A stretch of 64,000 nucleotides of DNA from Anaerolineae bacterium. GTDB taxonomy: Bacteria; Chloroflexota; Anaerolineae; Aggregatilineales; Phototrophicaceae. Below are positions 41,297 to 59,112 of this stretch, in pieces; positions within the stretch are counted from its first letter, which is position 1, and the number at the start of each line of letters is the position of its first letter. The DNA lies in assembly GCA_022820665.1 (NCBI GenBank), contig JAJEFB010000041.1:1-64000 (forward strand), given 5' to 3'. The notes beneath the pieces were generated by a model. The model was not told the DNA's origin and searched no databases. It worked only from the letters and a program-made list of their open reading frames with translations. Position numbers and translations under genes: made by a program.

Positions 41297-42487
41297 ATGA
41301 AGAGTGCTGTACTCTTAGTCATCATGGCGTCGTTGCTGTTCGCGCCAGCCTCAATAGCACAGGACGATGACAAGCCCACGGTCGCTTTTTTGAAATGGGG
41401 AGATTCGAGCAACGTAGCCCTGGCGGAAAAAGCCATCCTGGATATGTTGCAGACCTATGGCTTTATCAACGAAGAAGAGCGCGCGCTGTTGAATGAAGAG
41501 CGCTCAATAGAGGGCGAGAACATCAATATCATTTACGGCGACGCCTTGTTTGACCGAATGGAAGCCAATGCCATCATAGACGAGGCGCTCGACAGGGACG
41601 CCGATGTCTTAGTCACGTTCACCACACAGATGACGCAAATAACCTATTATGCCATCCGTGATTTTATTGATCCGCCCAAGCTGATATTCACAGTGACATC
41701 GGGACCCTACATTACCGGGGTAGCCGAATCGTCGTGCATCAAACCGGATTTTGTCATTGGCACAGTGCCGGTGACGAATTACGAAGACATTGTGCCCTTG
41801 CTATTGCGGCAAGATCCGGACATGAAAGTGGCTGGCGCGATTTATTCGCCCATGCAGACAGCCAGCGAAGTTGGCGTGGCGCGGATCACAGAAATTGGCG
41901 AGTCCCTGGGTTTGACCGTCGAAGCGGAGTCGATTACTGCAACGCCGGACTTGTATCAGGCGGTCGAAAACCTGGCGAACCGGGGCGCGGAGGCGATAAT
42001 CATCCCCATCTTCACCTTTCAAGGCTTTAGCCTGCTCTTGTCGCTTTCCTATGACTACGGCTTGCCGGTGGTCTTTTCCGCGCCACAGAACGCTTACCGC
42101 GGCGGGACGATCGGCGGCGGTTTCTTCGGCCTTTACAAACAAGGCGCAATAGCGGGAAATATGTTGATATCGCATCTGAACGGGGATATTGATATCGCCA
42201 ACACAGCCATCTACGAAAGCGATGATTTTGCCTTCGCCGTCAATCTTGACGCCGCCAGCCTGCAGGATGTCGAGATTTCGCAAGCGCTGCTGGAAGAAGC
42301 GGCATATATCGTTGAGAACGGGCAGACTGCCCAAGGCATTTCAGCCCAATACCCGGAAGTCGAAATTACGCTGCCAGAAATGCCCTTGGAGCAGCGCCGC
42401 GCCGCCGACCTGCAATTCCTCGCCGGGCTTGAATGCAGTCCAGAGATGATTGCGGAACAGCGGGCGGCGCTCGATGCCGGTCCCTGA
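41297..42487 (+). CDS. ABC_sub_bind family solute-binding protein, paralogue 1
   Basis: A 396-residue TrpX-like (COG2984) binding protein. The signal peptide ends SIA-QD near residue 21, without a lipobox. After it come DKPTVAFLKWGD, the VGVARITEIGESLGLTVE half-domain near residue 190 and a KQGAIAGNMLISHLNGDIDI strand near residue 280. It has Cys147 (SSCIKP) and Cys380 (LECSPE) and no other cysteine after the signal peptide. The C-terminal tail, about 35 residues (LEQRRAADLQFLAGLECSPE and onward), is longer than I recall for TrpX and is repeated in the paralogues. GGGGAGGAG precedes the ATG. It is closest to the permease and ATPase, so it is the natural cognate partner. Confidence 0.88.
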   Translation: MKSAVLLVIMASLLFAPASIAQDDDKPTVAFLKWGDSSNVALAEKAILDMLQTYGFINEEERALLNEERSIEGENINIIYGDALFDRMEANAIIDEALDRDADVLVTFTTQMTQITYYAIRDFIDPPKLIFTVTSGPYITGVAESSCIKPDFVIGTVPVTNYEDIVPLLLRQDPDMKVAGAIYSPMQTASEVGVARITEIGESLGLTVEAESITATPDLYQAVENLANRGAEAIIIPIFTFQGFSLLLSLSYDYGLPVVFSAPQNAYRGGTIGGGFFGLYKQGAIAGNMLISHLNGDIDIANTAIYESDDFAFAVNLDAASLQDVEISQALLEEAAYIVENGQTAQGISAQYPEVEITLPEMPLEQRRAADLQFLAGLECSPEMIAEQRAALDAGP

Positions 42488-42587
42488 GCCCTTCAGATGT
42501 AACATGATTTACTCAAGCGTCATGTATCTAAGCGCCGTGCGCAGATTTTGGCTCATTCCACGGCGAAGCTAAATCTGGAGGAACCAC

Positions 42588-43784
42588 ATGTTCAAACGAA
42601 TCGCGCTCATTTGCGCGCTGCTGACGCTTGCGCCAGCAGCGCTGGCGCAAGATGATGGCAAGCCTACAATCGCTATCCTGCGTTACGGCGGCACAACCCT
42701 TACCGCTTTGGCTGAAAAAGGCATTCTGGATATGTTTGAAGCCTATGGCATGGTGAATGCGGAGGAGCGCGCCGTATTGGATAAGGCAGAAAATCTTGAA
42801 GGCGAGCATATTAATGTCATTTATAGCGACGCGGATTTCGATATTCCGACGGCGAACATCATGGTGGAGGATGCGTTGGATCGGGGCGCCGATACGCTCT
42901 TGACGCTTTCAACACCCGTGTCGCAGATCGCCGCCAACATCACGCGCCAAATGGACGACCCGCCGGCTATTATTTTCGCTATCGTCACCGCTCCCTATTT
43001 CGCTGGCATTGCCGACGCCCCCTGCGTCAAAGATAGCCACATAGCCGGTACGCAGACCGACGTGCCCTACGATGAGTTTGTGCCTCTTCTAAAGGCGCAG
43101 GATCCAGAGATGAAGGTGATCGGCGCAATCGTGAATCTGGCTGAACCCAATAGCGTGTTCGGCACAGAACGAATCATCAGTCTTGCCGAGGAGCTTGGCA
43201 TGCAGGTCAAAGTGGCTCCGGTTGTCGCAGTTGCGGATTTGTCACTGGCAACCGCCAGCCTTATTAGCAAAGGTGTTGAGGCGATCGCCCTGCCCGCTGG
43301 CTATACTACATCTATCGGTTTGTCCGCAATTGTAGATATTGCCGCCGAACACGGCGGGATACCGGTCTTTTCCATCGTAGCGGAACATGTCTATCGCGGC
43401 GCGACTGTAGGCGCCGACTTTTACAGCCTGTATCGCGAAGGCGTCATTGCCGCCCGTATGTTGATTAGCCACCTCAACGGCGACATCGACATCTCGCGTC
43501 TGAGCGTCAACCTAAAGCCCGGCTTTACAGTCGCGATCAATCTCGATGCGGCGGCGGAGGCAGGCGTAGAGATCTCCGACGAACTGCTGGCAATGGCGGA
43601 CTGGACGATTAAAGATGGGACAAGCACCGAAGGCGTAACGCCCGACTTGCCCGAAATCGGCATTGAACTGCCGGAAATGACGCTGGAAGAGCGCCGCGCC
43701 GCCGACCTGGAATTCCTCGCCGGGCTGGAATGCAGTCCGGAAATGATTGCGGAGCAGCGGGCAGCGCTTGATGCCGGTCCCTGA
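42588..43784 (+). CDS. ABC_sub_bind family solute-binding protein, paralogue 2
   Basis: 398 residues, tandem paralogue of the gene before it. The signal peptide ends ALA-QD near residue 21. Conserved blocks are KPTIAILRYGGT, LDRGADTLLTLSTPVSQIA near residue 100, DAPCVKDSHIAGTQ near residue 144, YREGVIAARMLISHLNGDID and the tail EERRAADLEFLAGLECSPEM. The last 25 residues are identical to paralogue 1, while the ligand-binding middle differs, suggesting a common tail function and different ligands. GGAGG lies before the ATG. Confidence 0.88.
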   Translation: MFKRIALICALLTLAPAALAQDDGKPTIAILRYGGTTLTALAEKGILDMFEAYGMVNAEERAVLDKAENLEGEHINVIYSDADFDIPTANIMVEDALDRGADTLLTLSTPVSQIAANITRQMDDPPAIIFAIVTAPYFAGIADAPCVKDSHIAGTQTDVPYDEFVPLLKAQDPEMKVIGAIVNLAEPNSVFGTERIISLAEELGMQVKVAPVVAVADLSLATASLISKGVEAIALPAGYTTSIGLSAIVDIAAEHGGIPVFSIVAEHVYRGATVGADFYSLYREGVIAARMLISHLNGDIDISRLSVNLKPGFTVAINLDAAAEAGVEISDELLAMADWTIKDGTSTEGVTPDLPEIGIELPEMTLEERRAADLEFLAGLECSPEMIAEQRAALDAGP

Positions 43785-43880
43785 AGCAACAGCGCCGAGT
43801 CCTAATAGACTAGCGCAGGATGAATCGCGTCAAGCAATACGGGCTTGCCGCGGCAAACTTAAACCAAAAGGAGAAACCCT

Positions 43881-45080
43881 ATGATTAGAAAAATACTTTT
43901 CGGTGCTTTGTTGTGGCTGACGCTTGCCGCGCCGGCTCTGGCGCAAGAGGATGACAAGCCGCTGATCGCCTTTCTGCGTTACGCTGGAACGGCGCCGGTC
44001 GCGGCGGCTACGGATGGCATCCTCGATTCGCTGGAAGCTTATGGATATCTAACTGCCGCAGAACGCGCCGCTCTGAACGAGTCCTTTGATCTTAAGGGCG
44101 CGAATCTCGATCTTATGTACCGGGATGCCGGCTTCGACTTGCCATCGGTCAATCTGATGGTCGAGGAAGCGCTGGATAAAGGAGCGGACGCCCTGGTTAC
44201 CATCACGACGCAGGTGGCGCAAATCGCTGTGAATGCGACCCGCGACCTGGAAGATCCGCCCGTGATTCTCTTTAGCCTAGTTACCACGCCCTTCGCCACC
44301 GGGATTGCGGATGCCCCCTGCATCAAACCAGATCATGTTGCGGGCACGCAGCCGCTGCTGTCATACGAAGAGTATGTGCCGCTCGTTTTGCTTCAGGATC
44401 CGGACATCAAGGTTATCGGTACAATCGTATCGCCGGATCAACCGACGAGCATTGTCGGCGCGGATAGAATCAAGGAAATCGGCGAATCGCTTGGTTTGAC
44501 GGTCGAGGTCGCTACCGCCATCAACTTGGCAGACTTGAATATAGCGGCGGAAAGTCTGCTAAGCAAAGGCGTAGAAGCCATCGTTCTTTCCATCACTCCC
44601 CTAACCCTGCAGGGGACGCCGGTCCTGGTGCAATTGACGGCGGAACATGGCATACCGCTGTACGCGCCTATCATACAGCAAGTTTATCGCGGCGTGACAG
44701 TTGGCGCCGGTTTCCACAGCTTTTATGAAGAGGGAGTGATCGCGGCTCGCATCCTGCACACTCATCTCAACGGCGACATAGATATCGCGGATATCGGCAT
44801 TAATCAGTCACGCAGTTTCGGGATAGCGATTAATCTGGATACGGCGGCGGCGCAAGGCATCGAAATCTCGGAAGATCTGCTGGCGATGACGAACTTCGTG
44901 ATAAAAGATGGCGAAAGATCCGCGGGCATGGCGGCAGACGTCGATGAGACAAGGATGCAGCCAGGCGACATGTCCATGGAAGAGCGCCGCGCGGCCGACC
45001 TGGAATTCCTCGCCGGTCTTGAATGTACGCCGGAGATGATCGCCGAGCAGCAAGCTGCGCTGGATGCCGCAGAAAACTAA
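43881..45080 (+). CDS. ABC_sub_bind family solute-binding protein, paralogue 3
   Basis: 399 residues. The signal peptide ends ALA-QE near residue 22; no lipobox. Same blocks as its neighbours: KPLIAFLRYAGT, DKGADALVTITTQVAQIAVN, DAPCIKPDHVAGTQPL near residue 145, YEEGVIAARILHTHLNGDID and the tail EERRAADLEFLAGLECTPEM. AAAGGAGAAA precedes the ATG. It is the last copy before the minus-strand block that splits the array; a bidirectional hairpin follows its stop. Confidence 0.88.
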   Translation: MIRKILFGALLWLTLAAPALAQEDDKPLIAFLRYAGTAPVAAATDGILDSLEAYGYLTAAERAALNESFDLKGANLDLMYRDAGFDLPSVNLMVEEALDKGADALVTITTQVAQIAVNATRDLEDPPVILFSLVTTPFATGIADAPCIKPDHVAGTQPLLSYEEYVPLVLLQDPDIKVIGTIVSPDQPTSIVGADRIKEIGESLGLTVEVATAINLADLNIAAESLLSKGVEAIVLSITPLTLQGTPVLVQLTAEHGIPLYAPIIQQVYRGVTVGAGFHSFYEEGVIAARILHTHLNGDIDIADIGINQSRSFGIAINLDTAAAQGIEISEDLLAMTNFVIKDGERSAGMAADVDETRMQPGDMSMEERRAADLEFLAGLECTPEMIAEQQAALDAAEN

Positions 45081-45104
45081 GATGACGAAGACTAAGACGT
45101 AAAC

Positions 45105-45129: not shown

Positions 45130-45140
45130 ATACGTTTCGG

Positions 45141-46508
45141 CTACAGCCTGCGCCTGGGGGCGGCGTATGCTTCAGGCGTAGCCATTTCGTCCATCCAAGC
45201 CACGAACTTGGCATGCATCATCTCGCAGATATCGCGTCTCTCGCTGGCGAGATTGTGTCGGTGTTCGGGATCATTGGCGGCGTCGTACAGCTCGATGCGC
45301 TCTCCCTCCAGGCTATAGAGAAAATCCCACTGGCCGTCGCGAATCGTACTTGGCGAAACTTCAATGACGGCGCGTTCATTATCGTCGACGATCTTGGTTG
45401 TATTGCCCGCTGTATCCGCCAGCGACTGTGATGTTACGACGATGTCGTGAAGGCGATCGACCTCGCCCCGAGCCAGCGGCAAGAGGGACTTCGCCTGTAC
45501 GCGATCGGGCGGATCAATCCCGGCCAGTTCAAGCATGGTCGGCATGATATCGGGAATGCTGACCAGCCCGGACAGGCGTTGATGATCGTAACCCGGGATC
45601 TTGACGAAGAGCGGCACGTGGGTGATTTCATTGTGCTTGGGACTCCGATAGGAGATGGCGCCCAGCTTGAAGCGCGCCATCGCTTCCATCACCGGAATCG
45701 TATTATCCGGCCAGCGGAAACGGCTCTTGCCAAAGATGCCGAACTCGCCGAAATAAAAGCCGTGGTCGGAGACAAAAAGAATCGCCGTATCCTCATATAT
45801 TCCCAGCGACTTTAGTCGGTCAAGCAGCAAGCCGAACCAGCGGTCCACCATGGTGATTTCGCCCATGTAGGTCGCTTTGGCAATCTCGAGATCCCGTTCG
45901 CTATAACCGGCATCCTGCCAATCCCAATAGGCTGGATAAACCTGCTCGCCCTGGTAATCGGGCAAATAGGGTTTCACATAATGCGCCGGCGGATCCCAAG
46001 GTTCGTGCGGATCCCAAGCGTCGATATACAAGAAGAACTGTTCATCGTAATGACGCTCGATCCAGTCCATCGCCGTTTTAAAAGTCTGCGGCGCAAAGCG
46101 ATCGTCTTCCTCGGTCCATTGGCTGGTGACATCGGGCCTGCCGGATGCCTCGCGCTGGCCCCGTATCCAGATGAAGTCGTCAAAGCCGCGGTCGTAACCG
46201 TAACCGTTGCGAATGAGAAAGGGTGTATCGCCCACGCCCATCGTGGTATAACCCGCCTTCGTCATCAGGTCGGCCAAGGTGATTTCGTCTTGCGGCAATG
46301 GTCCCCAACTCAGGTAGGTCAGCGTAAATCGACCGGTAGCGATATCGGCGCGCGTCGGCACGGTCGGGAAGGACGCGGCATGACAATCCTCAAATACGAT
46401 GGCGTCTTCGGCGAAACGGGTCAGATTGGGCGCGATGACTTGTGAATTGCCGTAGGTCGGCAGGTAATCGGCTCGCAGCGTGTCGGTCACGACGCAGATG
46501 ATGTTCAC
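45141..46508 (-). CDS. Sulfatase-fold (alkaline phosphatase superfamily) hydrolase with Thr at the nucleophile site
   Basis: A 455-residue protein of the sulfatase family: metal ligands in VVTDTLRADYL (Asp9 region), the active-site motif at residues 49-53, FVSDHGFYFGEFG near residue 245 and a late KSRFRW-like block. The canonical C/S-x-P-x-R that becomes formylglycine reads TVPTR, so Thr49 stands where Cys or Ser should be. A classical formylglycine sulfatase is therefore unlikely; Thr is the nucleophile in the related phosphodiesterases (NPP type), so phosphate-ester cleavage is possible. No signal peptide, hence cytosolic. It is last in a minus-strand sugar-importer operon. Confidence 0.82.
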   Translation of the reverse strand: MNIICVVTDTLRADYLPTYGNSQVIAPNLTRFAEDAIVFEDCHAASFPTVPTRADIATGRFTLTYLSWGPLPQDEITLADLMTKAGYTTMGVGDTPFLIRNGYGYDRGFDDFIWIRGQREASGRPDVTSQWTEEDDRFAPQTFKTAMDWIERHYDEQFFLYIDAWDPHEPWDPPAHYVKPYLPDYQGEQVYPAYWDWQDAGYSERDLEIAKATYMGEITMVDRWFGLLLDRLKSLGIYEDTAILFVSDHGFYFGEFGIFGKSRFRWPDNTIPVMEAMARFKLGAISYRSPKHNEITHVPLFVKIPGYDHQRLSGLVSIPDIMPTMLELAGIDPPDRVQAKSLLPLARGEVDRLHDIVVTSQSLADTAGNTTKIVDDNERAVIEVSPSTIRDGQWDFLYSLEGERIELYDAANDPEHRHNLASERRDICEMMHAKFVAWMDEMATPEAYAAPRRRL

Positions 46509-46551
46509 TCTTTCCTTCTCCTCTCGCTAGCGGCGGAATACAGTGATTCTC

Positions 46552-46572
46552 GGGCGACCTGATAGGTCGCCC
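46552..46572. repeat. GGGCGACC hairpin repeat
   Basis: GGGCGACCT (46552-46560), GAT loop, AGGTCGCCC (46564-46572): a perfect nine-base stem, the best copy of the family seen at 4487, 4772, 23243, 25230 and 33592. The following 46573-46749 carries an inverted GTCTACGCGACC unit and no gene. Confidence 0.65.
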
Positions 46573-46749
46573 CTACAACTTTCACGATGAACCTTGTAGG
46601 GGTCAGAGCGCGCGGGTCGCGTAGACATTGACCGCCGACACAGCCATACGTTATTAGCTGACCCGTCGCTATCGTACCGTATTACCTCAAACATGTCCTC
46701 TCCTCAGCGTGTTACGGGAGGAAGGGGTTGGGGATGGAGGGTATCCCGT

Positions 46750-47754
46750 CTAGCCCTTCACCGCGCCGGACGCCAGCCCGCGGATCAAATACTTCTGGAA
46801 GAAGATGATGACAACCAGAATGGGCAGCGTCGTGGACACCGAGGCGGCCGCCGCGAGTGTCACATGCCCGGGATCTTCTCCTCCGGTGAACTGCGCGATG
46901 CCAATGGGAAGCGTCCAGTTGATCTGTGTCAATATACGCGCCAGCAGAAAATCGTTGTAGGCTAAGAGCAGGGTGAACAAGCCGGTCGTGATGATGCCGG
47001 GCCACATGATCGGCACGATCACAGAGATGAAGGAGCGCAATCGACCGGCGCCGTCAATCATCGCCGCCTCTTCAATTTCGCGCGGAATTTCCATGAAGAA
47101 GCTGCGCAGCATCCAGATCGTGAAAGGCTGGTTCACCGCCACCAGACAGAATATCAACAAGATATGCGTATCGTATAAGCCGGATAGCTGGCCCAGGTAA
47201 TAGAAAGGCAGCACCAGCGCCAGGCTCGGCAGTGACCGGAACGCCAGCGCGATTACCAGGATATAGACCGAGACGACATGCCGAAAACGCGCAAGCCCAT
47301 AGCCGGCCAGCGCGCCGATGCTCAGCGAGACGCACAGGGTGCCCAGCGTCACAATTACGCTGTTGATGAGATAATCATAGAATTCTGCCGTGTTGACGAC
47401 CCGCGGCAAGCCGATGGCGACGATAACGCCGGCAAAGATGCAGCCAATGTAAACCAGCGAATTGGGCGCCGGTATGCGCGGAGCCGAGAAACCGATCACG
47501 ATCAGCGCGAAGATGATCAGGATCAGCGCCAAGCCGTAGGGGGCAAAGTCCTCCGGCGACGCGTTCAGCCAGAGGTCAGCATAGTTCTCGCCCGTAGGAC
47601 TAAAAACAAAGCGTGGCGTGCGGGCGTTGGCGTCCTTCGGCAGCTTGACCGAGTTCATGATCGTCCAGCCGAAAGGCAGCACGTTGTAAATCGTGAACAG
47701 CGCCAGCACGATGTAGATGATGATTCTCGCCATAGGGCTTTTTGTTTGTGTCAT
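46750..47754 (-). CDS. Sugar ABC transporter permease, MalG type
   Basis: A 334-residue permease with the EAA loop EEAAMIDGAGRLRSFISVIVP near residue 225 (split here for length) and a C-terminal QKYLIRGLASGAVKG. Between the first span and the core it carries two extra hydrophobic segments (about residues 72-90 and 100-120) not usual in MalG. The ATG overlaps the stop of the MalF-type gene by one base, giving translational coupling. The partner binding protein is at 49749-51032. No ATPase is encoded in the operon. Confidence 0.9.
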   Translation of the reverse strand: MTQTKSPMARIIIYIVLALFTIYNVLPFGWTIMNSVKLPKDANARTPRFVFSPTGENYADLWLNASPEDFAPYGLALILIIFALIVIGFSAPRIPAPNSLVYIGCIFAGVIVAIGLPRVVNTAEFYDYLINSVIVTLGTLCVSLSIGALAGYGLARFRHVVSVYILVIALAFRSLPSLALVLPFYYLGQLSGLYDTHILLIFCLVAVNQPFTIWMLRSFFMEIPREIEEAAMIDGAGRLRSFISVIVPIMWPGIITTGLFTLLLAYNDFLLARILTQINWTLPIGIAQFTGGEDPGHVTLAAAASVSTTLPILVVIIFFQKYLIRGLASGAVKG

Positions 47755-48620
47755 CAGCTTTCCTCCACCTGGTCGCGATAGGTAATGACGAGAAATGGAA
47801 TCAAGACGACGAAAATGCCCAGCACCGTCAGCACGCTCATGGCATTGGCTTTGCCCAGCCGACCGAAACTCATTGCAACTTGAAAATTGTAGTACATGAT
47901 CGTCTCGGCATCATAAATCGGGTTCTGCTGCGTTAGCACAAAGACGCTGTCAAATACACGATAGGAGTCCATGATCGAGATCAAAGCGATGAAAACAAAT
48001 AGCGAGCGCAGATGCGGGATGGCGATGTGCCAGAGTTGCCGCAGCCAGGACGCGCCGTCAACGCGCGCCGCTTCCAGCGACTCTTGCGGCAAGGTCTGCA
48101 AACCGGCGAATAGCACGATCATAGCGAAGGGCGTCGCAGTCCAGATGCTGTGGAAGACAATCAAAATCGGCACCGTCGTGCTGTTCATGAACATGCGATA
48201 GTCAAATAACTGCTGCATCCAGTACCAATAAGGACCGCCACGATCAAACATATCGCGGAAGATCAACGTGCCAACCACCGGCGTCATGACAAAGGGCACC
48301 AGGGCGGCGGCGATGAAGAGGCCGCGAAAGCGCGTGACCTGATCGAGCAGCAAGGCGAACAGCAAGCCGAGAACAATGCGCAGCGGCACAGCGGCGATGA
48401 TGAAGAGTATCGTGAACTCTAAGGAATCCCAAAACTCGGGATCGGCAAGGACTTCTTCGTAGTTCCTTAAGCCGACCCAAAGCGGTTCATCGAGGTTGCG
48501 GAAGGTGATGAAATGCAGTCCCAGCACGATTGATGCCAGCAGCGGGAGGGTCATCAGCGCCAACATGATGAATACGCTGGGACCCACAAAAAAAGTAAAG
48601 GTTCCTTTGTTCATAAGCAA
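47754..48620 (-). CDS. Sugar ABC transporter permease, MalF type
   Basis: A 288-residue permease with six hydrophobic spans and the EAA loop LEAARVDGASWLRQLWHIAIP (about residues 180-200; given in parts). N-terminal GPSVFIMLALMTLPLLASIV is the first span. It pairs with the MalG-type protein to form the channel; no large P2 loop is present, as usual outside enterics. An AGGGAGA ribosome binding site precedes the ATG at 48620. Its upstream neighbour is an alpha/beta hydrolase gene placed between binding protein and permease. Confidence 0.9.
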   Translation of the reverse strand: MLMNKGTFTFFVGPSVFIMLALMTLPLLASIVLGLHFITFRNLDEPLWVGLRNYEEVLADPEFWDSLEFTILFIIAAVPLRIVLGLLFALLLDQVTRFRGLFIAAALVPFVMTPVVGTLIFRDMFDRGGPYWYWMQQLFDYRMFMNSTTVPILIVFHSIWTATPFAMIVLFAGLQTLPQESLEAARVDGASWLRQLWHIAIPHLRSLFVFIALISIMDSYRVFDSVFVLTQQNPIYDAETIMYYNFQVAMSFGRLGKANAMSVLTVLGIFVVLIPFLVITYRDQVEES

Positions 48621-48667
48621 TCTCCCTCTATTTGTCGGCGCGCCGCCAATGGGAGGGTATCGGGCGC

Positions 48668-49582
48668 CTATTGTATTTCCGCGATCATGTCTAGAACGAC
48701 GTCAATGACGGCTTGCGGCTGCTCGCGGAAGAGGGCGTGCCCGGCCGCAACCGACACAACCCGGCTCCGCGAGGAGAGCCGCGCTTGCGGGTATTGCATA
48801 GCGCGCCACATTTCAGCGAGGCTGCGTTGATACGCGTCATCGCCGCGCCCGTCCGCCGTCGCGACCATCACTGCCAGAGGCAGGTCGCCAAGCGTGCCTC
48901 TGGACTGGACTTGCGCGCCGCTGGCGATGATGTATTGGTTCTGCCAGTAATAGGTCCACCAGTAATTGGGATTGTTCAAGAGCAGCTTCTTGTAGCGCGC
49001 GCCATAACGCGCGGCTGTCTCTGGACTGATCCAGCCGGCAATGTCGCTTTCGCGCAGCTTCCTCTTCGACGCCCGTTCCGCGAAACGGCGAATGCCTTCA
49101 AGTTTGTCTTGCCATTCATATGGGTAACGATCAGGATAAGTCCGTGTCGCCCACAAGTCATAGCCCGGCGGAATCGCGTCCATCAAGATCAAGCCGGCGA
49201 CGCGCTCCGGATGATCGGCGGCGAAGATCTGCGCAACCGGTCCGCCGCCCGACCAAGCCAGCAAGATGACCGGATCGTCTTCGTCGCGGGCATCCAGCAG
49301 GGCGGCGAACTCGTCAGCCTCCTTCTCCGCAGTCCGATAGGTATCGCTTGGGTCGCTCCAGGCAATTCCCGCGCGGTCATAGGCGCACACACGGGTATGT
49401 TCCGCCAGCATGTCCTGAAAAGGCTGCCAGCCGAGGGTTGTGCCTAGCCAGCCGTTCTCGAGCCAGACGGTCGGGCTGCCCTTCCCCATTTCCACGACAT
49501 GAACGCCGCGACCATCGACATCGATGATCTCGCCCAGTGGTTCGCCCAAGTCGAGTGAAGCTACCGGAAACACCGTAGCCAT
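48668..49582 (-). CDS. Alpha/beta hydrolase
   Basis: A 304-residue alpha/beta-hydrolase fold protein: oxyanion region ENGWLGTTLGWQPF near residue 42, AYDRAGIAWS near residue 70, nucleophile elbow LAWSGGGPVAQ near residue 110 (A-W-S-G-G, so the first glycine of GxSxG is Trp-flanked Ala), and RVAGLILMDAIPPG. A late VAAGHALFREQPQAV has the catalytic His. It may hydrolyse an ester or lactone. It lies inside the sugar importer operon between binding protein and MalF gene, so deacylation of an imported sugar is a reasonable guess. There is no signal peptide. Confidence 0.83.
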   Translation of the reverse strand: MATVFPVASLDLGEPLGEIIDVDGRGVHVVEMGKGSPTVWLENGWLGTTLGWQPFQDMLAEHTRVCAYDRAGIAWSDPSDTYRTAEKEADEFAALLDARDEDDPVILLAWSGGGPVAQIFAADHPERVAGLILMDAIPPGYDLWATRTYPDRYPYEWQDKLEGIRRFAERASKRKLRESDIAGWISPETAARYGARYKKLLLNNPNYWWTYYWQNQYIIASGAQVQSRGTLGDLPLAVMVATADGRGDDAYQRSLAEMWRAMQYPQARLSSRSRVVSVAAGHALFREQPQAVIDVVLDMIAEIQ

Positions 49583-49748
49583 GCCCTCGCCAAGCTCCAG
49601 GACTATTCCGAGGGGCCTGAGTTTGACAACTGCGGTAGCGACCAGCGTTTAGCTTTGCAGGTCACAGACGGGGCCGATGCGGCAACATCGTTAGACAATT
49701 GACCCCTCCTCCCGCAGCGAGAGAAGGGGCCCTCAAACGTGGGAGAGG

Positions 49749-51032
49749 CTAACCCTCGATGAATCCCTGAGCAGTCGCTTCGGCAGTGTAGGCTTCGGCG
49801 GCGGCGTCAAGCAATTCCGCCGCGGACATGTCGCCAGTGACAATCTGCGGCAGCCACTGATCCCAAACCGGGTTCAATACCGCGCCGATTGCCGGCACCG
49901 GGGTGCCCTCGACGCCGCCGGCGATTGTGGCGAAGACGGCCGGCAGGTAGCGCGCGTCAGCATTCGCAGCCACAGCCTGGCGCGTGATCACGCCATAGTT
50001 GGCGCCACGCAGCATCGTCTCCTCATCCATCGCTTCCAGGATGATCTGGAAGACCAAATCAGGATCGTCGTCAATATTGGCTGGTATGCCCAAGCCGGCG
50101 CCGGTGCCGCCGGTAGCGCCATAGAGACCGTCAGCCGTTGCCCTGGGGGCGGGCGCGAATTCGATGCCGCCGACAAAGTCGGAAAAGTCGGGATCATCCA
50201 TAGCGGCGGCGCGGCTGGCCCAGGTGAAAGCCATCGCCAGTTCGCCGGTGGCGATGCCGATTTGGCTGTCGTCAATGCTGTAGGTCAAGCCTTCCTCGCC
50301 CATGCAGGCGTCCACGATCTCGACCAGTTTCTCCAGCGCCCTCACTCCTTCGTCACTATTAAAAGCCGGGGTCATATCATCGTTGAGCGGCGCCCCGCCA
50401 AAAGCCAGCAACATATCGCCAAATTCGATGCGCCAAGCCCAGCCAGCGTGCAGTTGTGTCGTGAAGGGGATGACGATGCTGTCTTCGGCTTGCAAGACGC
50501 CACAAGCGGCGATCACATCGTCCCAGGTTTCCGGTACGGCGATGCCATGCTTCTCGAGCAAATCGGGGCGATAGAACATGTGACGCGTGTTCTGCTCCAT
50601 TGGCAAGCCGTAAATATTGCCATCCACCGTCATGTCGTCGATGCCCAGGATGTCCGAGATCTGGTATTCATCCTCGTATTTGGCGATCAGGTCGTTGAGC
50701 GGCATCATCCAGCCTTCGGCCACGTATGATTCGATGTCGCCCTGGGTCACCATGATGATGTCATAGGGCGACGTGCCGCCCGCGCCCAAAGCCAGGCGCA
50801 GTTGGTCATGCGCCGAACCGGAATCGAGCAACTGCGTATTGACGTCGATGTTGTCGACCTGGTTGCAAGCTTCGAGTTCGCTGGCGTAGAAGTCGATAAT
50901 AGGATAGGTCCAGCCAATCATGTTGACCGTCGCCGAGGACTCGGGCGGCTCGATCATGCAGCTGCCCATATCTTGCGCCGCTACCGGCAGCGCGAGCGCG
51001 AGCAAAGCCAAGATAAGAATTAGACGTTTCAT
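49749..51032 (-). CDS. Sugar ABC transporter solute-binding protein (MalE-like)
   Basis: A 427-residue extracellular binding protein. The signal peptide ends VAA-QD near residue 19, no lipobox. Family blocks include SYDIIMVTQGDIESYV-type sequence near residue 88, GNIYGLPMEQNTRHMFYRPDL-like sequence near residue 135 (shown in part) and PETWDDVIAAC. Four cysteines remain in the mature protein (CMIEPP, EACNQ, AACGV, DACMG), allowing two disulfides. It leads the minus-strand operon of hydrolase, MalF, MalG and sulfatase-fold genes. AAGGAGAA precedes the ATG. It is unrelated in sequence detail to the 27-33 kb binding proteins. Confidence 0.9.
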   Translation of the reverse strand: MKRLILILALLALALPVAAQDMGSCMIEPPESSATVNMIGWTYPIIDFYASELEACNQVDNIDVNTQLLDSGSAHDQLRLALGAGGTSPYDIIMVTQGDIESYVAEGWMMPLNDLIAKYEDEYQISDILGIDDMTVDGNIYGLPMEQNTRHMFYRPDLLEKHGIAVPETWDDVIAACGVLQAEDSIVIPFTTQLHAGWAWRIEFGDMLLAFGGAPLNDDMTPAFNSDEGVRALEKLVEIVDACMGEEGLTYSIDDSQIGIATGELAMAFTWASRAAAMDDPDFSDFVGGIEFAPAPRATADGLYGATGGTGAGLGIPANIDDDPDLVFQIILEAMDEETMLRGANYGVITRQAVAANADARYLPAVFATIAGGVEGTPVPAIGAVLNPVWDQWLPQIVTGDMSAAELLDAAAEAYTAEATAQGFIEG

Positions 51033-51830
51033 GGAAATTCTCCTTATAGAATTAGACCTTAAGATATCTGGCTACAGATGGCGATCCCCCAAGCGGGCTG
51101 CGCTATCTTTAGCCAATACCGAGACGGACGAGCCCTGCGTGAGCCGCGTCTGGAACTGAGAGTTTAACACAAGATTAACGACATTAGCTATGGCGACAGA
51201 GACTACAGCCAGGGCAATCGCATCAAAATATTTCTTAGCCTCGAGTACAGCGTAGGTCGCGTCGCCACTCGCCAAGCCGTCGGCACACAGTTTCTTATTT
51301 GCTAGCGAAGTTATCATGTAGTCAAAATGGAGCCAGTCCCAGCGATAATTTGTTTTTAGTTTGTTTTTTGTCCAATTTTGTCCATTTCGGACAATGAAAT
51401 ATATTTTTCGGACAATAGACGTGGTTTTGCGGCCGAAATGGACAAAAGGCGGGCGGCTGACGGTATGAATTTAGTTTGCCGGCGCGTTCGCCGCCATAAA
51501 GTCGGCTTCTGCCCCTGACATGCCTCTGAACCGTCCCTAGCTGTCTCCCTAAATCCCATAACTGTATAGATACCGTATAGATACAGTCTGTTTTTTCGAG
51601 GGATATTTTTTGAGTCCGGCCGTGAAGTGGGACATCGGCGGATTGCATCGGTTGGGGAGCGAGATTGAGAGCTTGCGATAATTGATCCATAGGAAGAGCA
51701 TATCATCATTTTGAGCAGAAGTGAAGAACAAATGTTCGCAGTTTTCGAGATTGCCGAAGTCAACTTGCCGCTTACAGGTTGGGATTGTCATTAGGCAGCG
51801 CCAATTGTCAGTTGGCGCGCCTACTGGTCG
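51033..51830. other. 800-base gene-poor stretch with strong inverted repeat
   Basis: AT-richer than the flanks. Short open frames exist on the minus strand (51072-51317, about 81 codons with one hydrophobic stretch; 51322-51690; 51549-51791) but they lack ribosome binding sites and overlap each other, so I do not call genes. It contains a perfect 15-base inverted repeat at 51376-51390 and 51433-51447, and repeated TTTGTCC and CGGACAAT words inside it. Confidence 0.5.
51376..51447. repeat. Perfect 15-base inverted repeat, TTTTGTCCATTTCGG
   Basis: Arms at 51376-51390 and 51433-51447 with a 42-base spacer. The spacer holds further TTCGGACAAT words. It could be a paired operator, a structured RNA or an end fragment of a small mobile element. 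No transposase is nearby. Confidence 0.6.
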
Positions 51831-53270
51831 CTATTCTCTGTCTACCTCCCAAATGCGGCTGTCCCGCGCTTCCAAGAAGCCCTGATTGGTCGCGCGCAGG
51901 CGCCAAATCTCCACTCTACGGAGAGTCGTGGACTCGTGGAATGAGTATGGGCGCAGGTATGATGCCGATCGATAATCCATGTACGCGCTGGCGACCGCCT
52001 GCCTGTCGTTGACAAAAACCTCGACCAAGTACTTGTCGATATAAATGCGCAGGACAAAGTCTTCGCCTTCGTCAAGTTCACTGACGGAGAAGGGCGCCTC
52101 GGTGCTGCCGACGCGCAGCCTGCCGTACTCGGGCAAGAAGACGATCGGCAAGCCAGGGCGATTGTCGTCGCAGAAAAGCTGCAAGCCAAAGCGCTTGCGT
52201 TGGATCTGCGCGGGATCGACCGTGATCTGAATCTCGAAAGAATCGCCGTCGAGCTGGAGCAGAGGATCCGCCCCCAGCGCCGCTTCCTCCGTATCGGTCG
52301 GCGCCACCAGCACGTCATTGATGACAATCGGATCAAATCGCAAGGAGGCCAATTCGCTGAGCGGTTTCATGCGCAAGCCCCCGTCCGGAGCCAGGCTCAA
52401 TTCCCGCGGCAGCGATTGGATCGTTCGCTCGGCGATATCGGCGTGCATGGAGCGCAGCCAAGCCCACATGACGCGGCGGCTGTCGGCGGCGAGCAGCGAT
52501 TCCGGCGCGAAGTAATCGCGATCCAGCGCGGCATACAGCGATTGTTCCGGTCGACGCCAGTTCATGCGCTCGTGGCGTTCCGGGACGAATTGTTCGTTTT
52601 GCGCGTCCCAGTCGCCCAGGTAATAGCGGCAGCCGTAAGGATGGCTGATGCAGAGCAGCATCCATTTGTCGCCCAGCGGGAAGAAATTGGGGCAGGAGAT
52701 ATCCTCGCCGATGGCTGTACCCGGCAGGTCCTGGCTCAAGAAGTCGCCGATATAAGTCCAGTTGCGCAGGTCGTCCGAGCGCAACAGCGGCGGATTGTGA
52801 CCGCCCGATATCGCATAATAAGTATCGCCGATCAAGAAACAGTCGGGATCCCAATGGCGCATTTCCGGGATTTGACCGTCGGCGGTCAAGGGTTCCACCG
52901 CAAAGGGTTTATGCCATGCCGAAAGTTCCCGGTCTTTGGCGAGGGCGATGTGATTTCTGCCGGAAGCCTGACCGTGGTAGATGGCGGCGGGTTTGCCCTC
53001 TTTGCTGAGAAAACCCGTGCCGCTGAACATGCCGTGCCCGGTGAAGGAAGGCTGCAGCTTGGTCGTCTGCCAGGTCCAATGCAGCATGTCGGGGCTGGTC
53101 ACATGCACAAAGGAGTAAGAAGCTTCACCCCGCCATTCATGCCGCAATATGTAGTGCAAGTGGTAGGTGCCGTCGAGGTAGAAAGCGGCATTGGGATCGC
53201 CTGGCGAACTGTCTTCGCCCGGGTGCATCAGATGGAAGTTTAGCGCTTGCGCATCCGTAACGGTTGACAT
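51831..53270 (-). CDS. Glycoside hydrolase family 32 protein (fructan-active type) with variant motifs
   Basis: A 479-residue GH32 protein: five-bladed propeller followed by a C-terminal beta sandwich from about residue 330 (IDKYLVEVFVNDRQAVAS is the typical sandwich block). The nucleophile motif is SPGDPNAAF (Asp25) instead of NDPNG. The stabiliser motif is HWDPD (Asp141) instead of RDP. The EC acid/base motif reads EDISCP (Glu189 or Asp190 before Cys193) instead of EC. Such variation suggests either a divergent subfamily or altered specificity. Expected substrates are fructosides such as sucrose or levan oligomers. No signal peptide. The gene is monocistronic, upstream of the binding-protein operon on the same strand. 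Confidence 0.83.
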   Translation of the reverse strand: MSTVTDAQALNFHLMHPGEDSSPGDPNAAFYLDGTYHLHYILRHEWRGEASYSFVHVTSPDMLHWTWQTTKLQPSFTGHGMFSGTGFLSKEGKPAAIYHGQASGRNHIALAKDRELSAWHKPFAVEPLTADGQIPEMRHWDPDCFLIGDTYYAISGGHNPPLLRSDDLRNWTYIGDFLSQDLPGTAIGEDISCPNFFPLGDKWMLLCISHPYGCRYYLGDWDAQNEQFVPERHERMNWRRPEQSLYAALDRDYFAPESLLAADSRRVMWAWLRSMHADIAERTIQSLPRELSLAPDGGLRMKPLSELASLRFDPIVINDVLVAPTDTEEAALGADPLLQLDGDSFEIQITVDPAQIQRKRFGLQLFCDDNRPGLPIVFLPEYGRLRVGSTEAPFSVSELDEGEDFVLRIYIDKYLVEVFVNDRQAVASAYMDYRSASYLRPYSFHESTTLRRVEIWRLRATNQGFLEARDSRIWEVDRE

Positions 53271-53712
53271 GGTTGTGATCTCCTCTATGCCCTCAAGCTA
53301 GATTTGCTCGCGCCTCAAGCCCGCCAGACGCGCTACGAAAAAAACCTTCACTTTCTGATTTTAACGCGATTCATCCTCAAGACGATGTTCTGTGAGAAGC
53401 AAACCGAAACTCGTCGCGCGACATTGATGGGCGGCTCACTCGCGGTTATTGCGACTCCAAAGATCCCACGATCGACTCTCACGTTCTCGGCGGGGCTGAA
53501 ACTGCAAGGACTGCGAGCGGAAGCCGTAGTTCTAATTGTTTTCAGCCTAGCGACAACAAGCCGAAGCAGTCACAAGGATTACCAACATTTAGTATTTAAC
53601 ATTCGATAATATCTTCAATTCTATATTTGAACACTTTCATAAGACTTAGTGATATGCTTAAATACATATGTTTCAATCTTTGACAAACTCTCACCCTCAC
53701 GGAGGAATAAAG
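53271..53712. other. Divergent intergenic region before paralogue 4
   Basis: No gene that I can support and no clear repeat. It separates the divergent GH32 gene and binding-protein paralogue 4 and so should hold both promoters; the last 120 bases are AT-rich. CACGGAGG before 53713 is the ribosome binding site. Confidence 0.4.
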
Positions 53713-54897
53713 ATGTTTCGGAAATTGATACTTGCGCTTGCCCTGATCCTGTTGACCGTTCCGCTGGGCTTGCTGGCCGATAGCGAGAAACCGACCATCG
53801 CCTTCTTGCGTTACCGACATTCCAGCGGAAGCAATGTTACCGTGAATGGAATCTGGGATATGTTTCAGGCTTATGGTTTGATAAGCAGAGAAGAACGCGA
53901 TGCGGTGAATGTTGAGGAAGACATTGAAGGCGAGCATATCAACGTCTTCTTCAGCAATGCCGGCGGTGATGTGCCAACCGCCAATATCATGGTCGAAGAA
54001 GCGCTGGACCGCGGCGCGGATGTCATGCTCACTGTATCGACGCCGGTATCGATCATTGCCGCAAACGCCATTCGAGAAATGGACAACCCGCCGCTCATGT
54101 TCTTCAGCCTGGTATCGACGCCCTATACCGGCGGGATTGCCAGTTCGCCCTGTATCAAACCAGACTATATCGCAGGAACTCATGTTCGCCAGCCTTACGA
54201 GTTGATTGTTCCTCTCGTGCAGGTACAAGATCCTGATATCACTAAAATCGGCACGTTCGTCAACCGGGCGGAGACCAATAGCGTCGACGGTTCAGCCCAA
54301 ATCGTCGCGGTAGCTGAGGACTTGGGGTTGAGCGTCGAAGTTGCCGCGATTGTCGAAGAGGCCGACATTCCAATTGCTACGCAATCGCTCCTCGACAAAG
54401 ACGTTCAAGCGATTGTCTACGCGGGCGCTTATCTCGAGTCCTTTGGCGTATCTTCAATGGCTACGGTCACGCGAGATTACGGCGTACCTACATATGGTCC
54501 CCCCATGAACATGGCTGTTGACCGTGGCGGGACAGTAGGAGCTGGCTTCAAGGACTACTATCGCGAAGGCATTATTGTCGCGCGGATGCTGATCGGTCAT
54601 CTCAACGGCACACTTGACATTAGTACGATTGGTATCAATTCCACGCCAAGTCTCGGCGTCGCGTTGAATCTGGACGCAGCGGAAGAAGCCGGCATCGAGA
54701 TTTCCGAAGAATTGCTGACGCTGGCGGAATACATCATCGAAGACGGAAAACCAACCGATATCTCGGTGTCGCCCAGTCTTCCAGAGATGACGCTGGAAGA
54801 GCGTATGGCGGAAGACGCGGCTTTCCTGGCGGCACTTGAGTGCACGCCGGAGCGAATCGCCGCGGAACAAGCCGAATTGGATGCCGCGGGGGAGTAG
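53713..54897 (+). CDS. ABC_sub_bind family solute-binding protein, paralogue 4
   Basis: 394 residues, resuming the array after the minus-strand block. The signal peptide is MFRKLILALALILLTVPLG with cleavage near LLA-D; no lipobox. Blocks: KPTIAFLRYRHS, LDRGADVMLTVSTPVSIIA, SSPCIKPDYIAGTH, YREGIIVARMLIGHLNGTLD, tail LEERMAEDAAFLAALECTPE. The start at 53713 is chosen because GGAGG stands nine bases upstream; an in-frame ATG at 53668 has no such site. It is most similar to paralogue 5 (same signal peptide and tail). Confidence 0.88.
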   Translation: MFRKLILALALILLTVPLGLLADSEKPTIAFLRYRHSSGSNVTVNGIWDMFQAYGLISREERDAVNVEEDIEGEHINVFFSNAGGDVPTANIMVEEALDRGADVMLTVSTPVSIIAANAIREMDNPPLMFFSLVSTPYTGGIASSPCIKPDYIAGTHVRQPYELIVPLVQVQDPDITKIGTFVNRAETNSVDGSAQIVAVAEDLGLSVEVAAIVEEADIPIATQSLLDKDVQAIVYAGAYLESFGVSSMATVTRDYGVPTYGPPMNMAVDRGGTVGAGFKDYYREGIIVARMLIGHLNGTLDISTIGINSTPSLGVALNLDAAEEAGIEISEELLTLAEYIIEDGKPTDISVSPSLPEMTLEERMAEDAAFLAALECTPERIAAEQAELDAAGE

Positions 54898-55077: not shown

Positions 55078-55113
55078 CTTCGACAAGTTCCCATGCATCA
55101 AGGAGATATCAAG

Positions 55114-56295
55114 ATGTTTCGCAAATGGATACTTGCGTTTACCCTGTTACTGTTTACGGTTCCACTGGGCTTGCTGGCCGATAATGATAAACCTACCATC
55201 GCCTTCCTGCGATATCGGTCCACCGGCACGGAGGATATCACCAAACCCGGCATATGGGATGTCTTGCAGGCTCACGAGCTGATTTCGCAATCCGAGCGGG
55301 AATTGCTAGATGAGAATCTGGATCTGAACGGCGAGCACATCAACGTCTTTTGGCTGGACGCGGCGAGCGACGTCACTAACGTGAATGCGATGGTGGAGAA
55401 GACGCTGGATCGCGGCGCCGACATTCTTTTGACTTTTTCAACGCCGGTCACACAGATCACCGCAAACATCACCAAAGAGATGGACGACCCGCCGGTTTTG
55501 CTCTTCGCCATCGTCAGCGCTCCCTATTCCGCCGGCATCGCCGATTCCCCTTGCATCAAGATGCCGCATGTCACCGGCACGCACATGTCGATTCCTTACG
55601 AGCAATTTGTGGCGCTGTCCAAGGTCCAACAGCCCGATATTCAGAGCATTGGCACCATAGTCGATCCGGCGCAAACGCAAAGCGTTTATGGCGTGAGTCG
55701 GATCACTGAATTCGCAGAAGCGCTCGGCTTGACCGTTGAAGTCGCCTCGATTGCATCCGCGGCTGACCTGCCCCAGGCGACAGCCAGTTTGGCCGACAAG
55801 GGCGTTGAAATGGTGATGATCGGCGCAGGTTATACCGAGTCGAGGGGTATACCGGCGGTCCTTGGCGTAGCGAAAGACTACGGTATTCCGGTCTTCGGCG
55901 TGTCCCCTCGCTTCATTTATCATGGCGCGGTGGTCGGCGCGGGCTTCGATGACTTCTACGGCGAAGGCGTGACTGTGGGGCGGATGATCGCCGCTCATAT
56001 TGACGGCACGCTGGATATCAGCACAACCGCTATCAGCTCCAGAGTGGACATCGGCGTGGCCGTCAATCTCGATACTGCCGAGGAATTCGGGATTACAGTT
56101 GCCGATTCCATATTGGATTCAGCCGTCATGGTGATTGAGGGCGGAGAGCTCAATGTACTCAGCGAGCCGCCCAGCTTGCCGGAGATGACGCTGGAAGAGC
56201 GCAAGGCGGATGACGCCGCATTCCTGGCAGAGCTCGAGTGCACGCCGGAGCGTATCGCCGAAGAAGAAGCGACGCTGGGAACGGCTCGGGACTAG
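55114..56295 (+). CDS. ABC_sub_bind family solute-binding protein, paralogue 5
   Basis: 393 residues. The signal peptide begins MFRKWILAFTLLLFTVPLG and closely matches paralogue 4. Blocks: KPTIAFLRYRST, LDRGADILLTFSTPVTQIT, DSPCIKMPHVTGTH, YGEGVTVGRMIAAHIDGTLD and the tail LEERKADDAAFLAELECTPE. AAGGAGAT precedes the ATG at 55114; the in-frame ATG at 55093 lacks a site. The final residues (EEEATLGTARD) are the most diverged tail of the set. Confidence 0.88.
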   Translation: MFRKWILAFTLLLFTVPLGLLADNDKPTIAFLRYRSTGTEDITKPGIWDVLQAHELISQSERELLDENLDLNGEHINVFWLDAASDVTNVNAMVEKTLDRGADILLTFSTPVTQITANITKEMDDPPVLLFAIVSAPYSAGIADSPCIKMPHVTGTHMSIPYEQFVALSKVQQPDIQSIGTIVDPAQTQSVYGVSRITEFAEALGLTVEVASIASAADLPQATASLADKGVEMVMIGAGYTESRGIPAVLGVAKDYGIPVFGVSPRFIYHGAVVGAGFDDFYGEGVTVGRMIAAHIDGTLDISTTAISSRVDIGVAVNLDTAEEFGITVADSILDSAVMVIEGGELNVLSEPPSLPEMTLEERKADDAAFLAELECTPERIAEEEATLGTARD

Positions 56296-56328
56296 CCGTC
56301 GCAGTCGCTAACCTCAGGAAGCAACAAA

Positions 56329-56358: not shown

Positions 56359-56425
56359 TGTGACTGAGCATTTAACAGGACGACCCGATAATGTCCCAGG
56401 AATATATATTGTTAGGAGAATGCCG

Positions 56426-57751
56426 ATGACGGTCAAGAGCCTGCTGCTCATCACTGTTTTATCATGGCTGATTGCGCCTTGGTCAGCGGCGGGGGCGGGC
56501 GGCAAGCCAACCATTGCGATGTTGCGTTTGGGCGATTTCGCTTCGGTCGTTGTAACAGAAAACGCCATCCTGGATGCGCTGCAAGCGCGTGGTTTCATCA
56601 ATGCGGAAGAACGCGCCCTGACGGCTCAGCGTCAGGACCTGCAAGGCGAAAACCTCAACATCATCTGGGGGAATGCCGGCTTTGATTTGTCTCTTGTGCC
56701 CATCATGATTGACAATGCCATTGATCAAGACGCGGATGTCCTGCTCACGACAACAACAATGGTCACCCAAGCCGCTGTGGATACCACACTGGATATGGAT
56801 GACCCGCCAGCCGTCCTGTTTACGAGCGTCGCCACCCCCTATTATGCCGGGATCGCCGACGCGCCCTGCATCAAACCCGATCATGTTACCGGCTTCCAGG
56901 TGCCGGTTCCTTATGAAGAGATTGTCCCAATGCTGCTGTCGCACAACCCTGATCTGAAGACCATCGGCGCCATATTCCAGTCGACCAGTTTGCCCGGCGC
57001 CTTCGGCGCCAAAAGCATAGAGCAAATCGCTGAAGCCCTGGGGCTGGCTGTCGAAACCAGCGCGATTGCCGCGCTGCCGGATCTGCGCGCCGCGACGCAA
57101 GGGCTCATCAACAAAGGCGTAGAAGCCATTCTGCTGCCAGCGGACAATAACATGAGCTTGGGATTGCCCATCATCGCAGGCATTGCCTTGGAAAATAACA
57201 TTCCGGTGTACTATTCCGTTTCCGGCGGCGTTGCTTTGGGCGCGACCTTCGGCATCGGCGGTTACCGCCATTATCAAGAAGGCGTCGACGCGGGCCGTGT
57301 GCTGGCGGCATACTTGAACGGCGATATTGATTTCGCGACTACCGGCATCAGCTCCATCGACGGTCTCGCGGTTGGCATGAATGTGGATTTGGCTCGCGCC
57401 GGGAACATCGAGATTTCCGACGAGTTGCTGGCTATGGCGGACCTGGCGGTCGCGGGCAATATGCTTCAGCTATCGCCGCGACTGCTCGAAGACTACTTCA
57501 GCGGCTTGGATCCGGCCGCAGTGCCCGGCATCATGCAAACAGCGGCTGCGGCTCTCCCCGATGTCGAATTTGTGGACGGCAAACTGCAGCTGCCGGTGGA
57601 CATGCTTGATTGGATAGTGGAAGCAGCGACGGTTTTCTTGGCCTCGAGTGGCGGCGGCAGCCCGGACGATACCGCATTCCTCGAAAGCCTGCATTGCAGT
57701 CCGGCGATGATCGCCGAGCAGCAGGCCGCGCTGGACGCCGCCAGCGAATAG
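56426..57751 (+). CDS. ABC_sub_bind family solute-binding protein, paralogue 6 (long tail)
   Basis: 441 residues, about 45 longer than its paralogues. The extra length lies between the binding domain and the conserved end: LQLSPRLLEDYFSGLDPAAV to DWIVEAATVFLAS (about residues 340-405), where others have a short linker. The core keeps KPTIAMLRLGDF, DAPCIKPDHVTGF and NKGVEAILLPADNN, and the end keeps LESLHCSPAMIAEQQAALDA. The start at 56426 has AGGAGA at proper distance; the ATG at 56420 would be too close to it. No lipobox is seen. Confidence 0.86.
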   Translation: MTVKSLLLITVLSWLIAPWSAAGAGGKPTIAMLRLGDFASVVVTENAILDALQARGFINAEERALTAQRQDLQGENLNIIWGNAGFDLSLVPIMIDNAIDQDADVLLTTTTMVTQAAVDTTLDMDDPPAVLFTSVATPYYAGIADAPCIKPDHVTGFQVPVPYEEIVPMLLSHNPDLKTIGAIFQSTSLPGAFGAKSIEQIAEALGLAVETSAIAALPDLRAATQGLINKGVEAILLPADNNMSLGLPIIAGIALENNIPVYYSVSGGVALGATFGIGGYRHYQEGVDAGRVLAAYLNGDIDFATTGISSIDGLAVGMNVDLARAGNIEISDELLAMADLAVAGNMLQLSPRLLEDYFSGLDPAAVPGIMQTAAAALPDVEFVDGKLQLPVDMLDWIVEAATVFLASSGGGSPDDTAFLESLHCSPAMIAEQQAALDAASE

Positions 57752-57776
57752 CGTCACAGCAAGCGCATAACCGTGA

Positions 57777-57816
57777 ATCGAGGGCGGTCGCTGCCGATCC
57801 GCCCTCGATTTGTTTC
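57777..57816 (+). terminator. Intrinsic terminator after paralogue 6
   Basis: ATCGAGGGCGG (57777-57787) and CCGCCCTCGAT (57799-57809), a perfect 11-base stem, followed by TTGTTTC. Confidence 0.78.
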
Positions 57817-57909
57817 CCGGCTGGTCAACAATTTGAGTCATCAACCAGCATTGTGTAAAATGGAATCGGCTATACTGTTGGAATACATATTGCTAACGCG
57901 AGGTTACAA

Positions 57910-59112
57910 ATGGTTCAAAGATTCCTGCTCCTAATTGCGGTATTGGCATTCAGTGTAAGTCCGGCGCTCAGGGCGCAAGATGATGAAAAGCCCACGATCG
58001 CCATTCTGTCTTTGGGGTATCATTCCAACGTCAACCTGTCGGTCAAGGGCACGCTCGATATGCTGCAAGCCTATGGCTATATTGATCAAGAGGAGCGCGC
58101 TGTATTAGACCAGCGGCAAGACCTCGAGGGCGAAGGCATCAATATCATCTGGGGCGATGCCGCTTACGACATCGGCTTCGCGAATCTCATGGTGCGCGAC
58201 GCCTTGGATAGAGACCCTGATGCCTTGATAACAATTACCACGCCAGTGGCGCAAATTGCCGCCAACGCCACCCTGGATATGGAAGACCCGCCAGTTGTGA
58301 TCTTCAACGTTGTGTCCAATCCTTATGCCGCCGGCATCGCCGACGCGCCCTGCATCAAACCCGCGCACATCTCCGGTTCTCAGTTTCTGGCGCCTTATGA
58401 TCGCATTGTCCCCCTGATGCTTCTGCAAAACCCCGATATGCAAGTGGTAGGCACGATCTTCACCTCCAATGAACCCAGTGGCATCTTTGGCGCGAGTCAA
58501 ATCTCGGCCATTGGGGAGTCGCTGGGATTGCAGGTCGAAAGCGCCTCCATCGTATCGACGGCGGATTTGACCATTGCGGCAGAAGGACTGGTCAGCAAAG
58601 GCATAGAAGCCTTCATTCTCCCCACAGAAGCCACCGTAGCCGCTGGCTTGCCAACCATCATACAAGTGGCGAACGAACATGGCCTTCCGGTCATGTATAC
58701 CGCAGGGAATGCCGTCTATCGCGGCGCGACGATCGGCGCTGGCGTCTACAGCTACTTCAAGGAAGGCGTCATTGCAGCGCGGATGCTGATCGCGCATTGG
58801 GAGGGCGCAATCGACATTGCTACCGCCGGCATCAATTTGCAAAACGACCTGAGCGTGGGCATCAATCTGGATGTGGCGGCCGCTCAGGAAACTGAGATTT
58901 CGCAAGAATTGTTGGCGGCGGCGGACTTCGTGATAGAAGATGGGCAGAGCAGCGAAGGCGTGACCCCCGGGCTACCCGAGGTGAATCCTTACCTGGAAGA
59001 AATGACGCTGGAAGAGCGTCGGGCTATGGACGCGGAATTCCTGGCGGAACGGCATTGCAGTCCGGAGCGTATCGCCGAGGAACAAGCCGCGCTGGACGCG
59101 GCGAGTGAATAA
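57910..59112 (+). CDS. ABC_sub_bind family solute-binding protein, paralogue 7
   Basis: 400 residues. The signal peptide ends LRA-QD near residue 22. Blocks: KPTIAILSLGYHS, LDRDPDALITITTPVAQIA, DAPCIKPAHISGSQ, FKEGVIAARMLIAHWEGAID and the tail LEERRAMDAEFLAERHCSPE. The cysteine pair is kept. The ATG at 57910 follows GAGGTTACAA. It is the last member of the array and is followed by its own terminator. Confidence 0.88.
   Translation: MVQRFLLLIAVLAFSVSPALRAQDDEKPTIAILSLGYHSNVNLSVKGTLDMLQAYGYIDQEERAVLDQRQDLEGEGINIIWGDAAYDIGFANLMVRDALDRDPDALITITTPVAQIAANATLDMEDPPVVIFNVVSNPYAAGIADAPCIKPAHISGSQFLAPYDRIVPLMLLQNPDMQVVGTIFTSNEPSGIFGASQISAIGESLGLQVESASIVSTADLTIAAEGLVSKGIEAFILPTEATVAAGLPTIIQVANEHGLPVMYTAGNAVYRGATIGAGVYSYFKEGVIAARMLIAHWEGAIDIATAGINLQNDLSVGINLDVAAAQETEISQELLAAADFVIEDGQSSEGVTPGLPEVNPYLEEMTLEERRAMDAEFLAERHCSPERIAEEQAALDAASE

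Follow-up and report, generated by a model that had tools for sequence, protein, structure and literature searches.

How does a single ABC importer serve many binding proteins? This question is raised by a locus within the window (the whole 64,000-nucleotide stretch of Anaerolineae DNA that was analyzed), wherein one permease gene and one ATPase gene stand at the head of an array of genes for PF04392 binding proteins (Table 1).

Array layout and genomic setting

The preliminary description of this DNA had reported a seven-copy array. Seven PF04392 open reading frames are indeed present on the plus strand, but the array is not continuous, and blocks of three and four copies are separated by an 8.1-kb minus-strand cassette whose ORFs and Pfam matches identify it as a set of sugar-utilization genes. 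The array proteins are PF04392 members and not TrpX equivalogs. All seven copies score between 71 and 101 bits against a curated PF04392 cut-off of 25.9 bits, and the 390-bit cut-off of the TrpX equivalog NF041285 (NCBIfam) was missed, with 62.5 bits for copy 1 and 112.2 bits for copy 7. Five further PF04392 genes, each encoding the cysteine pair and tail described below, are located on three other contigs of the same genome.

Table 1. Positions of the importer genes and related features in the window
Feature	Coordinates	Strand	Evidence and details
Single BPD_transp_2 permease (TrpY-like), array head	39302..40369	+	Pfam PF02653 E 2.1e-23
ABC ATPase (TrpZ-like), after the permease and ahead of copy 1	40381..41175	+	PF00005 E 1.6e-30
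Binding protein copy 1	41297..42487	+	PF04392 3.6e-21; Cys 147 + 380; codons 41735-41737, 42434-42436
Binding protein copy 2	42588..43784	+	PF04392 5.9e-22; Cys 146 + 382; codons 43023-43025, 43731-43733
Binding protein copy 3	43881..45080	+	PF04392 9.9e-27; Cys 147 + 382; codons 44319-44321, 45024-45026
Cassette between copies 3 and 4 (sulfatase, two sugar ABC permeases, alpha/beta hydrolase, sugar-binding protein, GH32); outside the system	45141..53270	-	ORFs + Pfam
Binding protein copy 4	53668..54897	+	PF04392 1.2e-19; Cys 162 + 392; codons 54151-54153, 54841-54843; likely start ATG 53713
Binding protein copy 5	55093..56295	+	PF04392 9.2e-29; Cys 154 + 383; codons 55552-55554, 56239-56241
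Binding protein copy 6, long insert ahead of tail	56360..57751	+	PF04392 2.7e-20; Cys 170 + 446; codons 56867-56869, 57695-57697; likely start ATG 56420 or 56426; AF2 pLDDT 92.5
Binding protein copy 7	57910..59112	+	PF04392 1.6e-23; Cys 148 + 383; codons 58351-58353, 59056-59058; AF2 pLDDT 93.8, pTM 0.90
Copy 7 C-terminal extension, mature residues 321-377 (linker, helix 344-356, Cys 360, helix 362-376)	58939..59109	+	AF2/DSSP; solved TrpX structures cover only model residues 3-319 or 3-330

The contigs of the matching genomes are MAGs titled Anaerolineae or Chloroflexi/Chloroflexota, and several of their isolate codes (RHO, COS, CAR, and APA) fit sponge hosts of a reef-sponge MAG study (PMC8163846). 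Judging from these codes, the genus probably consists of sponge symbionts. Rfam yielded no riboswitch or T-box match within the window, a promoter and terminator scan of positions 39200-45300 remained at chance level, and no relatives of the binding proteins were found on viral contigs. In a search of the non-subscription literature, we found nothing on PF04392 arrays in Chloroflexota.

Of the 19 genus genomes, 17 carry a single homologue of the permease at the array head, whereas the rest of the order yielded none at E<=1e-20. It was not detected in genomes G013 and G016, though binding proteins are present there, and in G003, G007, and G014 it is located apart from the sampled arrays. The gene order in sampled genus arrays is permease, ATPase, and then as many as 11 binding-protein genes. 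The gene content is that of a shared translocator, with one permease in those 17 genomes and 2 to 22 PF04392 receptor genes across all 19. The upper end of this range is genome G018 (loci L045, L046, and L070-L072), wherein 11 of the 22 copies are consecutive after one permease and ATPase. From these gene counts, we infer that the receptors share the one permease, and other importers might serve copies that reside far from it.

A second set with several receptors per transporter is evident at positions 26831-33290 of the window, where genes for sugar-binding proteins (26831-28123, 28231-29520, and 31923-33290) flank a fused gene with two permease domains (29651-31831, 726 aa).

The cysteine pair and the C-terminal tail

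The preliminary description had noted one cysteine in a PC(I/V)K or SCIK context, another in a C(S/T)P motif, and no other in the mature protein, and this holds for all seven copies. Each mature part carries exactly two cysteines, one in (P/S)C(I/V)K at about residues 146-170, the other in C(S/T)P located 17-18 residues before the end; a single additional cysteine in copy 2 is in its signal peptide. Exactly two cysteines are likewise present in all 127 mature copies encoded on genus contigs. The merged set comprises 182 different PF04392 copies from the genus with complete 3′ ends; both cysteines occupy aligned positions in 181 of them, and none has a third in its mature part. The lone exception (L053:3257-4549) carries Trp (TGG) in place of the Cys (TGC) of a near relative, a one-base difference, and retains its tail cysteine. 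Hereafter, we use the mature numbering of copy 7, wherein the two residues are C125 and C360. An even number of cysteines in other secreted proteins was considered as additional support. Although the count is 0, 2, or 4 in most sugar-binding proteins, a window member with a single cysteine and several incorrectly chosen ORFs led us to drop this argument.

The earlier claim of a tail of about 35 residues that exceeds the usual TrpX length stands as to the excess, but the extension past the solved TrpX structures spans about 57 residues, comprising a variable linker and about 34 conserved positions. Moreover, the LEERR part of the motif is absent from copy 6, which retains only D..FL...C(S/T)P..IAEQQAALD after its long insert. 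The tail is not common to TrpX proteins, and therefore the objection that the preliminary description had raised against itself, a tail shared by all of them, did not arise. A profile search for the motif outside the protein family, also proposed there, found it restricted to the genus apart from a few genomes of the same taxonomic family: matches were obtained in 33/34 genus genomes, in 3/64 other genomes of the family (two of the three weak), and in 6/298 genomes of the class, every one inside the family. The strong match outside the genus (G239) is likewise a PF04392 protein with the cysteine pair. A general secretion or anchoring tag was rejected because the profile matches only the 12 PF04392 proteins in the genome that carries the array; one extra match, at E 0.3, is noise.

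AlphaFold2 modeling of copy 7, with 52 related sequences, gave a body with the cluster-B two-lobed fold, which superimposes on 3LKV, 3LFT, and 6HNI with Z values of 35-37 and rmsd values of 1.7-1.9 over 295-296 aligned residues. The tail pLDDT is 85-97 in this model and 92-98 in that of copy 6 (pTM 0.90), where it lies beyond a low-confidence linker. In both models, the residue immediately before the tail cysteine forms an isolated beta bridge between the two helices, and this predicted feature suggests that the tail is docked on the body.

That a disulfide pins the tail to the binding domain, as had been proposed, gains good indirect support from the near-total co-conservation of the two cysteines, the lack of any other cysteine, the presence of genes for extracytoplasmic oxidation (VKOR and four Thioredoxin_4, or DsbA-like, genes in the same genome), and covariation between residue 126 and the last helix. 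The bond itself we infer, as a C125-C360 disulfide that would lock the tail onto the body. The covariation concerns four copies that end one or two residues past the tail cysteine and thus lack the last helix (helix 2). Residue 126, adjacent to C125, is I, V, or L in 178/178 full copies and E, E, E, and Q in the 4/4 truncated ones. The truncated copies fall in two clades, one (L035) nested among full-length relatives, and the co-change therefore represents two lineages only. Because residue 126 changes together with helix 2, this helix probably packs on it, an arrangement that, judged from sequence, would probably place C360 near C125. Gap-free mutual information gave no reliable tail-body contact signal. 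A gapped version had placed the tail at residues 115/116/126; this was rejected because the signal was driven by the truncated copies and disappeared without gaps. In the nested copy (L035:2457-2520), helix 2 was lost via a frameshift or stop, and an out-of-frame remnant, LAERQAALERQ, follows the stop.

Binding pockets and comparison with known systems

Seven pocket columns, which correspond to the amino-acid-contacting positions of TrpX proteins with solved structures (PMC9382623, PMC6816091), were transferred to the genus copies by alignment. Of the clamp T119/A138/T140/D163/N244 (3LFT numbering; T or S at position 140), D163 is found in 0/182 copies, N244 in 2/182, and A138 in 13/182, and at most two of the five residues are kept in 181/182. 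With the TrpX amino-acid clamp lost, the ligands are therefore probably other than aromatic amino acids. The complete clamp is likewise missing from most other Chloroflexota PF04392 proteins examined, and its loss is therefore not unique to the genus.

The pocket columns have an entropy of 2.60 versus 1.83 for the body, a value equaled or exceeded in 743/100000 random draws. In the pocket, orthologues are 94% identical and paralogues 31% (body, 85% and 44%), and the copy-1 pocket string is identical in 28/28 orthologues. This pattern supports receptors with fixed, differing ligands, and each copy seems fitted to another nutrient. The copies could alternatively be redundant tandem duplicates that bind the same ligand and merely raise dosage, as their tandem arrangement might suggest. 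However, the low identity between paralogues relative to orthologues, in body and pocket alike, and the constancy of the copy-1 pocket make this very improbable. Of the proposal of one docking partner and many ligands, the pocket pattern thus supports the many ligands, and the single permease in most genomes fits the one partner.

The importer type is already known. The fold over model residues 3-319 is shared with TrpX, CD0873, and VC_1101 (PF04392; PDB 3LFT, 6HNI, and 3LKV), and, as in trpXYZ of S. suis (PMC9382623), the binding proteins are encoded together with a permease and an ATPase. In contrast, these known members lack the C-terminal tail and retain the amino-acid clamp that the genus copies do not, and CD0873 is a lipoprotein, whereas the genus copies have no lipobox. 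Other Chloroflexota PF04392 proteins belong to the same Pfam family but have a lipobox cysteine, neither cysteine pair nor tail, and usually one to four copies. Several paralogous binding proteins also serve one ABC importer in Pseudomonas aeruginosa, namely DppA1-A5 with DppBCDF (PMC4206461), although these belong to a different protein family, and here there are up to 22 receptors per genome with a common module whose disulfide is putative. This form of the importer, with its cysteine pair and tail, is new and specific to the genus.

Possible roles of the tail

The explanation that we favor, and judge reasonably probable, is one TrpXYZ/PF04392-type ABC importer in this Anaerolineae genus, whose receptor set would be encoded by the array. 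The binding proteins would be secreted, unlipidated, via signal peptidase I and would adopt the two-lobed class-I (cluster B) receptor fold, and the C-terminal extension would fold back onto the body, where the C125-C360 disulfide would fix it. Duplication and divergence would have produced a separate pocket per orthologue, and hence a different small molecule for each, whereas all receptors would have the invariant disulfide-tail module and one permease/ATPase pair in common.

The absence of a lipid anchor raises an alternative role for the tail. The signal peptides of all seven copies finish in signal-peptidase-I-like AxA/AQ sequences whose cleavage site has no cysteine and thus no lipobox. 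PF04392 proteins elsewhere in the class show the reverse, with a lipobox and neither cysteine pair nor tail, so that the module and lipobox absence go together in this lineage. The tail might accordingly substitute for a lost lipid anchor and hold the receptor at the cell surface. However, sugar-binding proteins of the genus and order are likewise without a lipobox and carry no comparable tail; unanchored receptors are therefore normal here, and the anchor idea, thus weakened, is improbable. Lgt and LspA, found in all genus genomes searched, also speak against it, and we rejected a genus-wide loss of lipoprotein processing on the same grounds. Equally unlikely is that the two cysteines, invariant as they are, do not pair with each other and instead form intermolecular disulfides or bind a metal or cofactor. 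The invariant columns include no conserved His or Cys companions besides the two, and the co-change of residue 126 with the tail helix points to contact within one chain. The copy without C125 that retains its tail cysteine neither proves nor excludes this alternative.

A stronger contender, to which we give somewhat less than an even chance, is that the tail and disulfide serve purely as a structural brace, belting domain 1 and so stabilizing a secreted, unanchored receptor, with conservation arising inside the molecule and no partner reading the tail. The C125 loop is conserved like the tail (entropy 1.20 versus 1.05 for helix 2), the loss of helix 2 accompanies the loss of the hydrophobic residue adjoining C125, as fits packing inside one molecule, and four copies persist without this helix. 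Nevertheless, when column entropies were placed at 100 degrees per residue, the conserved stripes 363/366/367/370 and 365/368/372 of helix 2 fell on roughly opposite sides, which is more conservation than packing through a single face would call for. A part for the tail in docking to a shared partner is a guess, and the more specific form of this idea, a docking tag in which the disulfide-locked module presents a constant face read by the single permease, is doubtful. Among orthologues, tail identity is 81% versus 85% for the body; among paralogues, it is well above body identity (69% versus 44%), which fits a brace and a docking face alike. The tail could be conserved because it packs on the C125 loop, which is conserved to the same degree, and not because of a partner. 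If the docking tag were true, as many as about 20 receptors, their pockets free to evolve, would plug into one importer.

Whichever role the tail has, about 180 natural variants are available wherein the pocket and the constant module evolve in opposite ways, and receptor-translocator docking and ligand specificity are therefore separable for study. The ligands may be sponge-derived metabolites imported by this uncultured, probably symbiotic genus.

Three minor observations were made along the way. Sugar-binding proteins across the order (L199-L228) apparently carry signal peptidase I sites and not lipoboxes. Lgt, at G000:C48:4059-5033 and in all searched genus genomes, appears as two overlapping match pieces in one frame of about 360-390 aa, which suggests an insert. 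Finally, a 1010-aa ORF at positions 7058-10090 of the window is, by eye, an apparent fusion of kinase-like, M23-type peptidase-like, and class-III aminotransferase parts.
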